33,430 nt of DNA from a virus, in IMG/VR virus record IMGVR_UViG_3300032087_002190, positions 1-33,430 of that record. One strand, 5' to 3'. The notes beneath the pieces were generated by a model. That model searched no databases, had not been told where the DNA came from, and saw nothing but the letters and a program-made list of their open reading frames with translations. The position numbers and the translations under genes were made by a program. This document shows, in pieces, positions 19,032-24,565 of the stretch. The first letter of the stretch is position 1. Each line of letters opens with the position of its first letter.

Positions 19032-19449
19032 CCTGCCTAGGTTAAGTCAATGTTGACAGATATGTCGCCAGCGTGGAGGTGCATGTGTCGCTCGGGGGCT
19101 TTGAACCCAGCGCGGTCTAGGATATCTTTACTCGCTTCTAGTTGCACGTACTCACTCTTAGCCCCCCGCGACAACTGCACTAACTTCGCGGCGGCAATCG
19201 TAGCACTCACGCCCATACTCTCTGCAATCCTCTGCATCATGTAACTTTGCACATGCGGTAGGCGCAAAGCCTTGCTGGCAGTCACTCTTCCGCTGTCACC
19301 CGAAGCGTAACCAGCCAAGCCAGCGGCCTCTGTGATACTACATCCATTTGCTACGAGCGCATCAACTAAGGCCGTCTGCTTGGCGGTCAGCTTCTTCCCC
19401 GCTATATCAACATCACTCATCTTATCATCCTGTACAGTTGACCCCCCCT
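19023..19449. repeat. 12-bp direct repeat bracketing the small terminase gene
   Basis: TTGACCCCCCCT occurs at 19023-19034, just past the terS stop, and again at 19438-19449, just before its ATG. The copies are identical and about 415 bases apart. They could be a scar of gene insertion, a packaging-site element, or low-complexity coincidence because of the C runs. Confidence 0.45.
19037..19420 (-). CDS. terS: Terminase small subunit
   Basis: A 127-residue protein from ATG 19420, which has AGGAT ahead of it; a TTG at 19492 would add 24 Gly/Lys-rich residues with no similarity to the family. The start of the domain reads KKLTAKQTALVDALVANGCS and continues with ITEAAGLAGYASGDSGRVTA, a helix-turn-helix of the kind found in terminase small subunits, then RLPHVQSYMMQRIAESMGVS. 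It recognises the packaging site and stimulates the large subunit. It is separated from terL by about 2.6 kb of small genes, and is G+C-richer than its neighbours. The nearby long inverted repeat at 19573-19747 is a candidate packaging site. Confidence 0.85.
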   Translation of the reverse strand: MSDVDIAGKKLTAKQTALVDALVANGCSITEAAGLAGYASGDSGRVTASKALRLPHVQSYMMQRIAESMGVSATIAAAKLVQLSRGAKSEYVQLEASKDILDRAGFKAPERHMHLHAGDISVNIDLT

Positions 19450-19572
19450 TGTGTTCCCCCCCTTTATGACTTGCACGAAATACCTCAGTCAACGCACAGG
19501 AGTTAACTCACTAAGCTCACTGGTTAATTTGCTATCGGTCTTTGTAGCCGTGTCTGTCGCTGTGCTTAAGTT

Positions 19573-19747
19573 GTCTCCGTGTCGGCGAGGCCACCCCTGC
19601 TAATCCCTTACCGTGCCGCATTTGACCAGCGATGCAAGGCCAAGCGCTGTCGTTCGCTCCGCTCCGAGCCTTGCATAGCTGGTCTGGTCATGCGGCGTGG
19701 TCGGGCTCTATCGCAGGGGATTGGCCTCTGCTTAACAAAACGGAGAC
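19573..19747. repeat. Very long imperfect inverted repeat upstream of first rightward gene
   Basis: Six blocks on the left pair in order with six blocks on the right: 19573-19579/19741-19747, 19587-19593/19722-19728, 19594-19600/19713-19719, 19615-19621/19690-19696, 19624-19630/19678-19684, 19632-19640/19668-19676. Each is 7-9 perfect pairs, with short bulges between, and a 27-base apical loop. As RNA this would be a rod of about 75 bases per arm. It lies between the leftward terminase genes and the rightward gene at 19753, and the right-hand end contains that gene's GGAG ribosome site. It is G+C-richer than the surroundings. Possible roles: packaging or replication site, structured leader, or small RNA. 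Confidence 0.8.
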
Positions 19748-19752
19748 AAAAA

Positions 19753-20235
19753 ATGAAAAGCACAGCAAAGACAAACACAGCAAAAGACCTCGAGAAAATC
19801 TTCTCAAAGGATTTCAGACAATCAAACTCTATGGTTACTTATTTACTCAGAGGTGCGGTTGAGCGTGCTGAGTATCTCATCCAGTTGAAACAAAAGGATG
19901 AGGCTTTGCACATGACAAATTGTGAGGCTCTCGCTACTGAAAACATATTGCAAATGGTGGAGAGCGGTGAAGGCTCACACATCATCATGGCGGCTGGACA
20001 ATATGGCTGTCGTATCGGAGCAATGCACTGGGATGAAACAGCTTTACAACGTGCAGATGATGCATTGATTGATTGCCAAACCGCGATTGAGATGCTCGAA
20101 GAATTTATCGAGATGACAAAGAAAACGCACAAAGATGTTACAGGCGATGCGTTCACGTACAAAAACCCAAATGCTAATAAAGGTAAGGTAATACAGGCTG
20201 ATGAATTACGCGCCAAATACCGTAAAGCGTCATAA
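19753..20235 (+). CDS. Hypothetical early protein, 160 aa
   Basis: The likely start is ATG 19753 (MKSTAKTNTAKDLEKIFSKD), seven bases after GGAG; the open frame upstream runs through the inverted repeat and is not plausible coding. The 160-residue product is helical and soluble with no motif I know: VTYLLRGAVERAEYLIQLKQ, then ADDALIDCQTAIEMLEEFIE and a Lys-rich tail. It stands alone, between the large inverted repeat and a strong terminator, so it forms a single-gene transcription unit. Its ribosome site would be hidden if the upstream repeat folded as RNA. A role in early takeover or packaging control is possible, but not shown. Confidence 0.6.
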   Translation: MKSTAKTNTAKDLEKIFSKDFRQSNSMVTYLLRGAVERAEYLIQLKQKDEALHMTNCEALATENILQMVESGEGSHIIMAAGQYGCRIGAMHWDETALQRADDALIDCQTAIEMLEEFIEMTKKTHKDVTGDAFTYKNPNANKGKVIQADELRAKYRKAS

Positions 20236-20534: not shown

Positions 20535-20843
20535 ATGACAATGCGTAAAATTGTAATCGATGCCTTTGGATGTGACGAATTAGTTTATCAATTCACACGG
20601 ATTGATATTGAGGATGGCGTTCTGCAAGGCGAAAGCTATGACGAGATAATGTCAGAAGTGAACGAGAAATTCTCTGATGAATACATCATTGGTGAAGCCG
20701 AAAACAGATTGTCAATTTCAGCCTCAAATTGTGTTCATAAATGCCCCTCAGATATGACAGTAGAAGAGCGCATGCATTGGAGAGAATGGGATCAGCTAAG
20801 CAATTTCATCTTTAAATATAAGTGGGAGTTGGGCAATGCGTAA
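20535..20843 (+). CDS. Hypothetical protein, 102 aa, first gene of ArdC operon
   Basis: A 102-residue protein, MTMRKIVIDAFGCDELVYQF. It is acidic with a central segment DEIMSEVNEKFSDEYIIGEA and a Trp-rich end (RMHWREWDQLSNF). No motif is known to me. GGAG precedes the ATG by nine bases. It overlaps the start of the ardC-like gene by eight bases, which suggests joint expression in the first wave after infection or induction. Small acidic early proteins often inhibit host factors, but there is no direct evidence for that here. Confidence 0.6.
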   Translation: MTMRKIVIDAFGCDELVYQFTRIDIEDGVLQGESYDEIMSEVNEKFSDEYIIGEAENRLSISASNCVHKCPSDMTVEERMHWREWDQLSNFIFKYKWELGNA

Positions 20844-21690
20844 ATCAGATTATGATGCAATCAATCAAAAGATTATCTCACAATTAAATGAAGGCGTGCG
20901 CCCGTGGTGCAAGCCTCACAACTCAGGCATGGGAGGCATGCCGCTACGTTCATGTGGCACGCCCTACCGTGGCATTAATATTATTCTGTTGTGGTTAGCT
21001 GATTATGATAATCCATATTGGCTAACCTTCAACACAATCCAAAAGCTTGGCGGCTCTGTCAAAGGGCAGAAATCCCCAGCTAAAGTTGTTTATGCATCCA
21101 ACGTGCGCAAAGAAAACGATGATGGCACAAAAGAAAGCTATGGTTTTCGCAAGCTTTCATCTGTGTTCAATGCGTCACAAGTTACAGGATTGCCCAGCCA
21201 TTATTACAACAAGGAAAAAACTTTTTATAATCCTGATGACAAGATGGCAGATATTGATGCGCAGATTGCAAGCACTGGCGCCGATATTCAAACCCGTGAT
21301 GGCACGCCATGTTATATCCCAGCAATAGACCAGATAAGAATGCCAGCCTTTGATGATTTCAAATCTGCTGGTGATTATTATTCTACTCTATTGCATGAGC
21401 TAGCGCACTGGACTGGGGCCCAATCTCGTCTTGATAGGTTGGATATGAAAAACAAGAAAGGTTATGCCTTCGAAGAATTGGTAGCCGAAATATCCGCCGC
21501 CTATCTCATGGCTAACTTAGGTATCTCTCCGCAAGTACGCGATGATCACGCCGAATATATTGGCGCATGGTTATCTGCTCTTGATGATGACCACAAATAT
21601 ATTTTTGATGCGGCAAGCTCCGCACAAAAGGCTGTTGATTTTGTCATGAATGAAATCAGCAACGCACAACACCAACTGTTAACCGCTTAA
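20836..21690 (+). CDS. ardC: ArdC-type antirestriction protein with zincin metallopeptidase domain
   Basis: A 284-residue protein. Residues 1-115 fit the ArdC N-terminal ssDNA-binding domain: ISQLNEGVRPWCKPHNSGMG, then PYRGINIILLWLADYDNPYW and KSPAKVVYASNV. Residues about 175-280 form a zinc metallopeptidase-like domain with HELAH at 187-191 and a second acidic motif EELVAE at 213-218, a likely third ligand. Plasmid ArdC proteins bind single-stranded DNA and protect incoming DNA against restriction. A gene of this type in the first early operon suits a temperate phage. Length is near that of short ArdC homologues. Whether it cleaves a host protein is not known. Confidence 0.88.
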   Translation: MRKSDYDAINQKIISQLNEGVRPWCKPHNSGMGGMPLRSCGTPYRGINIILLWLADYDNPYWLTFNTIQKLGGSVKGQKSPAKVVYASNVRKENDDGTKESYGFRKLSSVFNASQVTGLPSHYYNKEKTFYNPDDKMADIDAQIASTGADIQTRDGTPCYIPAIDQIRMPAFDDFKSAGDYYSTLLHELAHWTGAQSRLDRLDMKNKKGYAFEELVAEISAAYLMANLGISPQVRDDHAEYIGAWLSALDDDHKYIFDAASSAQKAVDFVMNEISNAQHQLLTA

Positions 21691-23860: not shown

Positions 23861-23930
23861 TTGATACTGCATTAATGCATTGCTCACGTCAACCCCTTTA
23901 TGTTATACTGCAAATATGCAATAGGAGGTT
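23861..23930 (+). promoter_or_regulatory. Paired operators and promoter of the replication operon
   Basis: TGCA-TTAA-TGCA at 23868-23879 and TGCA-AATA-TGCA at 23909-23920 are 41 bases apart, start to start. TTGCTC (23880-23885) and TATACT (23904-23909), 18 apart, make a plausible promoter lying exactly between and into the second operator. The AGGAGG ribosome site of the initiator gene follows at once (23923-23928). Repressor bound at both sites would close the promoter, perhaps with DNA bending. Confidence 0.65.
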
Positions 23931-23932
23931 TG

Positions 23933-24565
23933 ATGTTTCATCACATCGCATGGGCTATGAAAGCCCAAACACCAGACGCTTTATCACGATGGCTGTTAGT
24001 TGTTCTTGCTGACCATGCCAATGAGGATGGCAAATGCTGGCCTTCACAAGCCACGCTTGCCAGACGCACAGGCATGGGCAGATCTACAGTCAATCGTAAA
24101 TTAGAAATGTTAGAGCAAGCTAACTTAATTCATCGCATTTCTGGAAACAGTGAACGCTCCACTATGTATCATCTGCTAGTACCAGAGCAAGACAGGGTAG
24201 TACCAGAGCGAGACAGGGTAGTACCAGAGCGAGACACTAAACTACCATTAAACAATCATACTCTCTCAGATGAATGGAAACCATCTGAAGAATTAATCGC
24301 ATCTATTAATGAGGTTGCACATCGTAATGGTCAGGAGGTAAACCATGACATTGAAACAGCTAAGTTCATTGCACACCATCAAAGCACAGGCAAACGGCTC
24401 AAAGATTTCAAAGCCGCTTACAGAAAGTGGTGTTACAACACTGTCAGTTTCGCAACAAGAAACAGCACTGGCAAAAATGGTGGCGGGGGATATCAACAGT
24501 CATCGAAGAACGAACATGGTCGAAGATGGCGTAGCTTCATTAGTAGCGCTGGAAACAAAAATTAG
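23933..24565 (+). CDS. O-like replication initiator with N-terminal winged HTH
   Basis: From ATG 23933 (AGGAGG five bases upstream) the product has 210 residues. Residues 1-80 are an HTH_36-type winged helix: ALSRWLLVVLADHANEDGKC, WPSQATLARRTGMGRSTVNR, KLEMLEQANLIHRISG. A seven-residue repeat, VVPERDR, follows at about 84-103, encoded by 21-bp DNA repeats that look like origin iterons. The C-terminal part has a helical domain (FIAHHQSTGKRLKDFKAAYR, then KW) like those that bind a helicase or its loader. The combination is that of lambda O and related initiators. No phage DNA polymerase is present, so it must bring in the host replisome. Confidence 0.8.
   Translation: MFHHIAWAMKAQTPDALSRWLLVVLADHANEDGKCWPSQATLARRTGMGRSTVNRKLEMLEQANLIHRISGNSERSTMYHLLVPEQDRVVPERDRVVPERDTKLPLNNHTLSDEWKPSEELIASINEVAHRNGQEVNHDIETAKFIAHHQSTGKRLKDFKAAYRKWCYNTVSFATRNSTGKNGGGGYQQSSKNEHGRRWRSFISSAGNKN
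24177..24236 (+). repeat. Three 21-bp tandem repeats in initiator gene (candidate replication origin)
   Basis: Units TAGTACCAGAGCRAGACAGG(G) begin at 24177, 24198 and 24219; the first two are identical apart from one base and the third is truncated at about 18 bases. They encode VVPE(Q/R)DR. In lambda the origin consists of four iterons inside gene O, between its DNA-binding and partner-binding domains; this array has the same place in the gene. I infer that it is the phage origin. Confidence 0.7.

Follow-up and report, generated by a model that had tools for sequence, protein, structure and literature searches.

A long imperfect inverted repeat, here called the rod (19571..19749, either strand), lies at the boundary between the late and early operons of a marine podovirus, and we confirm that its structure is real and widely kept. 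Dozens of relatives have such a fold at this position although their letters differ widely, and the shape is therefore probably useful to the phage. We tentatively propose that the rod represents an undescribed class of control elements in marine podoviruses: a fold of 180 to ~810 nt, conserved in shape and labile in sequence, reaching about -400 kcal/mol as RNA, sited at the early/late boundary and made of a kept basal switch with exchangeable apical cassettes. Such an element would act in part as folded DNA beside a promoter/G-run block and in part as a leader gating the first early gene.

The window, by which we mean the whole 33,430-base virus record analysed, encodes an integrase, a repressor-like protein, a podovirus connector and a capsid protein of the Pfam family Phage_capsid_2. 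By its connector protein the closest annotated phage is Pelagibacter phage EXVC031P Hodr (64% identity), and the phage is a temperate marine podovirus related to this pelagiphage. The rightward genes, from gp160 (19753..20235, plus strand) onwards, appear early and include ArdC, an HTH_36/DnaT-like replication protein, YqaJ, ERF and the integrase. Leftward run the structural genes and the first late gene, terS (19037..19492, minus strand), which PHROG and Pfam assign to the terminase small subunit and whose start may be internal. The rod sits exactly at the divide between terS and gp160, that is, between the late and the early operon. The ArdC-type anti-restriction gene (20836-21690) is placed early in the rightward operon, as it also is in relatives lacking gp160, and the gene of the HTH_36/DnaT-like protein (23900-24562) encodes a threefold VVPERD repeat and may contain an origin. 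The ends of contigs of ~33 kb fall at differing distances from terS. Around the terminase, the genes of Methylophilales phage MEP301 and Vibrio phage 1.138.O are ordered differently, and these phages offered no comparison.

The first early gene encodes a protein of 160 residues, whose family (130-165 aa) is represented next to the rod in 49 of the loci examined. Its AlphaFold model is all-helical (pLDDT 85). There was no useful match to gp160 in Pfam, PHROGs or PDB, where the profile query was a subset of the family alignment and the whole alignment had too few conserved stretches, and Foldseek returned nothing better than E 0.05 for the model. We therefore dropped the route to a function of the rod through this neighbour, for want of a weighty sequence or fold match.

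The outermost left arm of the rod (TTGTCTCCGT, 19571..19580, plus strand) forms a perfect 10-bp helix with 19740-19749 and thereby pairs with the ribosome site, GGAG (19742..19745, plus strand), which serves the gene at 19753; the earlier note had rightly placed this GGAG inside the outermost right block. Further in, GAGGCC pairs with GGCCTC and GCCGCAT with ATGCGGC, and the left arm of the lower helix, Y1 (CCCCTGC, 19594..19600, plus strand), is paired in the long fold with Y2' (GCAGGGG, 19713..19719, plus strand). The left arm of the upper rod (19624..19640, plus strand) is 94% complementary to the right arm (19668..19684, plus strand), with one mismatch in 17 nt. All the blocks named before are present and pair in the right order, but they measure 6-10 bases and not 7-9. 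The 27 nt between the arms (19641..19667, either strand) also stand, but this apex, described as a loop, is only partly open, as it folds into a small inner hairpin.

Folded as RNA, positions 19560-19770 reach -110.8 kcal/mol (z -9.2), and none of 200 shuffles was as good, so the folding check proposed in the earlier note places the repeat well beyond chance. The minus strand gives -112.4 kcal/mol (z -9.7), and DNA parameters give z -9.4. Once corrected for G+C, the rod is the most extreme fold of the 33 kb window. It is indeed a G+C-richer island, with ~0.60 against 0.43 in the next gene. An intrinsic terminator was considered and rejected, since the rod is far too long and has no T run, and a terminator scan of 19380-19880 gave none at the rod.

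We then compared the region in relatives. A TerS-based search yielded 80 viral loci, in which 280-nt stretches within 900 nt upstream of terS were scored for fold against G+C, with control blocks containing the same number of stretches. A z below -3 was found in 55 of 58 terS loci compared with 4 of 91 control blocks, and a z below -5 in 31 loci compared with one control block. With 180-nt stretches, exceptional folds were found in 35 of 63 loci compared with 12 of 253 controls; the yield is lower because many rods are longer than this. The folds in the gap adjoining terS span ~180-810 nt, and their sequences are often unrelated between lineages. Hodr, for instance, holds in the same place a rod of unrelated sequence, and its ribosome site is paired. 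Among three close contigs (L002, L003, L004/L005), by contrast, the rod is almost identical: L005 differs from the window at 1 of 180 nt in the rod and at 22 of 391 nt in gp160, and L003 at 3 of 180 nt in the rod and at 31 of 378 nt in terS. In a more distant relative (L006/L130, and L131), much of the arms has changed in a paired manner and gp160 is very different, while the apex is retained, with two positions changed in L130 and L131. Where no gp160 could be detected, the gaps measure ~350 to 840 nt and are folded, with energies as low as -402 kcal/mol; two MAG contigs whose TerS is 57% identical have rods too, but these leave the ribosome site outside. The earlier statement that nothing known has this form holds as regards Rfam and the papers searched, but a whole clade shares such folds.

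Some features of these gaps are recorded here in their own right. Upstream of terS in L010, L007, L012, L013 and L044, gaps of 500-840 nt are folded nearly throughout (L010, -402 kcal/mol), contain many small perfect hairpins and precede a different first early gene. A plus-strand motif, CCGCACC ... CCGTG, recurs inside the variable stem of L039, L041, L086, L007, L010, L015, L042, L043, L064 and L081, and occurs in Hodr as a variant form. A short leftward reading frame follows the left arm in some relatives; it was discarded as a candidate, being absent from the window.

Paired changes are frequent in the helices. Among the 43 consensus pairs of 12 aligned leaders, 14 were changed on both sides, with pairing kept, in one or more sequences; in 15 other leaders the same holds for 17 of 25 consensus pairs. 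Pairwise comparison of relatives gave 252 double Watson-Crick changes. None of these counts is one of independent events. The earlier note had called for a search for compensatory changes; relatives do retain both the flanking genes and a repeat whose changes are paired, so that the outcome named there as a refutation did not arise. Double changes can also be the product of template switching, by which the two arms of a palindrome are made alike (PMC7202029, PMC8604942), so the covariation demonstrates a kept palindrome more surely than a kept RNA.

The apex behaves differently from the base. Near-identical lower parts carry different apices in L030 compared with L104 and in L128 compared with L114/L116, where an apical hairpin of ~100 nt is swapped as a block. 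One apex type recurs on leaders with different lower parts, and the apex of the window is present in four further contigs besides the close relatives and the L006 types. To judge from these sequences, the variation looks like the swapping of a sensing or binding part.

The basal part of the rod encloses the ribosome site in most lineages. Over 23 lineages, the bases of this site pair with the far arm with a mean probability of 0.83, compared with 0.40 when the upstream part is shuffled, and 11 lineages exceed all 30 of their shuffles; in the window the values are 1.00 and 0.35, and none of the 30 shuffles reaches the former. The exceptions are L011, L056 and L070, in which the site is mostly unpaired, and L090/L091, in which it falls outside the rod. 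In addition, Y2' has a second possible partner, Y3 (CCTCTGC, 19725..19731, plus strand), with which it forms a local hairpin containing one G-U pair on the plus strand. Measured back from the start codon, this hairpin runs from 40 to 21 nt in the window; in 33 of 41 distinct leaders its beginning lies at 36-43 nt and its end at 19-26 nt. In relatives Y2' is kept, and 24 of 48 leaders show complementarity of 6 nt or more between it and each of Y1 and Y3, compared with 3.65 (maximum 6) in controls. As the arm common to the rod helix Y1:Y2' and the hairpin Y2':Y3, it renders the two helices mutually exclusive. The leader shows two of the features looked for in a switch, a ribosome site paired beyond expectation and an alternative helix that would free it. 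At the standard position, the internal non-Watson-Crick pairs of the local hairpin are G-U on the plus strand in four lineages and never on the minus strand, which, small as these numbers are, is the best hint of a plus-strand RNA. The proposal of a translation switch for the 160-residue protein is partly supported, by a masked ribosome site that is kept in most gp160-bearing lineages; because the helix changes are strand-neutral, the acting molecule may be RNA or DNA, of either strand.

The explanation that we rank first, though it falls somewhat short of being probable, is that the rod is a two-state leader of the early mRNA, gating translation of the first early gene. The mRNA of the rightward early operon would have the rod as its 5' leader; in the window the rod stops 3 nt short of the start codon, so a rightward transcript cannot begin to its left without including it. 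When closed, the leader would form a single long rod with the ribosome site held in its outermost helix; when open, the Y2':Y3 hairpin would replace the lower helix Y1:Y2' and leave the site free. The choice between the states might be made by the cut of a double-strand RNase, by a ligand or protein at the exchangeable apex, or by the timing of folding during transcription. In favour of the gate we count the masked ribosome site, the competing helices near the start codon, the double changes and the near invariance of the rod among close relatives. Variable apices on near-identical bases resemble, by analogy, a sensor on a kept switch. For such a gate we infer plus-strand transcription through the rod, an actual block of translation and a trigger for opening; left of the rod, no conserved rightward promoter was seen. 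Counting against it, the rod is so stable that opening needs outside help. The ribosome-site exceptions, the persistence of large folds where the first gene is not a detectable gp160, and the strand-neutral helix changes, halved G-U pairs and RNA-like unpaired bases of the minus strand, detailed below, also speak against the gate.

Beside the rod, the sequence holds a second kept feature (19442..19498, minus strand), consisting of TGTGCGTTGACT, ~18 nt, CATAAA and then G7-N7-G7, promoter-like and directed towards terS. Most lineages, with or without gp160, have on this strand TGTGCGTTGAC(A), ~18 nt, a TAAA-rich hexamer and two runs of ~7 G separated by 6-7 nt; L006, L018, L032 and L078, for example, show TGTGCGTTGACA - ~18 nt - TAAA-rich hexamer - G7 - 6 or 7 nt - G7. 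The spacing of the G runs differs by one base between lineages, which indicates that the block is not simply terS coding sequence. It reads as a putative leftward promoter with a G-run element; a G-quadruplex is possible in principle, and the block is a candidate late promoter, pac or origin signal. The spacer separating this block from the rod on its left side (19507-19526 in the window, and in relatives) also contains direct repeats of the type CTCACNAAGC(A)CTCAC, possibly operator sites.

The nature of the changes within the rod bears on the molecule that acts. Changes within the helices left a G-U pair on the plus strand 139 times and on the minus strand 131 times, and for pairs common to the folds of both strands they are equal in number for each strand; the share of G-U among all pairs is 5.1% and 6.5%, compared with 11.5% and 12.5% in shuffles, or about half. 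This strand-neutral, Watson-Crick-only constraint is compatible with folded DNA, though it does not prove DNA to be the acting form, and template switching between the arms could also yield it (PMC7202029, PMC8604942). Among perfect triloop hairpins on either strand, 22 of 62 have GNA loops compared with 32 of 235 elsewhere in the same phages. GNA triloops are very stable in DNA. Large folds and the G-run block moreover remain beside terS where gp160 is not found. It is accordingly quite possible, if still doubtful, that the rod acts as folded DNA, a cruciform or a folded single strand, where the operons meet next to terS and the promoter-like/G-run block; it might then serve packaging, concatemer processing, replication or late promoter control, and the masked ribosome site would be a by-product. 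Folded DNA does not account for the coincidence of the rod's end with the ribosome site in most lineages, or for the local hairpin with plus-strand G-U pairs at a fixed distance from the start codon. Because of the strand-neutral helix changes, the G-U depletion and the RNA-like unpaired bases of the minus strand, we rank a DNA-level role only a little below the RNA gate, and the two may hold at once.

Those unpaired bases raise a further alternative, ranked third and in our view unlikely, that the minus strand yields a functional leftward RNA: one that stands alone as a structured RNA, or one that overlaps the start of gp160 as a leader or antisense RNA. On the minus strand they are A/G-rich and C-poor (A 0.40, G 0.315, U 0.20, C 0.09), a skew not seen in the spacer adjoining the rods. 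The minus strand also folds better in 41 of 45 leaders, and in most lineages better than composition predicts, but this advantage is partly compositional and was given up as a way to call the strand. Helix mismatches, with 35 A-C compared with 13 G-T on the plus strand, mostly contain G on the minus strand; the pattern is explained by the skew of the unpaired bases and is thus not taken as proof of the strand. The neutrality of the helix changes also weighs against a minus-strand RNA, and on that strand the rod lies upstream of the kept leftward promoter-like block, so that no promoter is evident for such a transcript. Finally, a palindrome of the mobile or repeat type (REP, MITE or similar), lodged without a function for the phage, is very improbable. 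Apical modules do swap between near-identical leaders, and palindromes in general can spread and be homogenised, but a MITE, REP or insertion element should be multi-copy and the rod has one match in the window's genome, occupies the same place in 55 of 58 loci and is nearly invariant among close relatives.

No described RNA family accounts for the rod. At the gathering threshold, Rfam 15 gave no matches in the window or in 20 relatives, and in 8 relatives searched at E up to 1 it gave only two matches, both at chance level. We searched the literature for such or similar elements and found no description, and the paper on the Skadi pelagiphage does not mention hairpins or inverted repeats. If the two-state gate is true, the first early gene of a large group of ocean phages, which encodes a conserved protein, is under the control of an exceptionally large RNA switch with a sensing part that is interchangeable in the manner of a cassette. 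If folded DNA is the acting form, the phages keep a long palindrome, a structure usually unstable in bacteria, where the early operon meets the late one. The relatives also provide a rare natural series in which many unrelated sequences have reached the same shape, and the element is readily testable because the isolated pelagiphage Hodr carries a version.

Several known systems resemble the rod in part. The concatemer junction of T7 has a hairpin end, and pac and cos regions adjoin terminase genes. The rod too is a DNA palindrome near terminase genes, but the T7 palindrome is far smaller, and a DNA end or packaging role at the rod is putative. Plasmid sso and Frpo elements are hairpin single-strand origins and single-strand promoters, and Frpo precedes the early genes of the incoming element. 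With these the rod shares the form of a long imperfect DNA rod, and an ArdC-type anti-restriction gene is early in this phage; phage DNA, however, enters as a duplex, and a single-strand stage or nicking enzyme would be hypothetical here. GOLLD, ROOL and OLE are giant ornate RNAs with very large, very stable folds (PMC12286853). The fold of the rod is likewise very large and stable, but it lacks an Rfam match and its sequence is not kept between lineages. In the lambda N leader, a hairpin with an RNase III site covers the ribosome site of the first gene of the early operon. The likeness lies in the first early gene, the ribosome site under a leader hairpin and a double-strand RNase cut that would turn translation on. 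The rod differs in its length of 180 to ~810 nt, its sequence lability with conserved shape, its exchangeable apices and its second local hairpin, and an RNase III cut is hypothetical here. The expression platforms of riboswitches and attenuators are bistable leaders. Unlike these, the rod has a long state that is overwhelmingly more stable, its helix changes show no preference for the RNA strand and its ligand is hypothetical; what it has in common with them is a pair of mutually exclusive helices with a shared arm beside the ribosome site, and a variable apex on a kept base.
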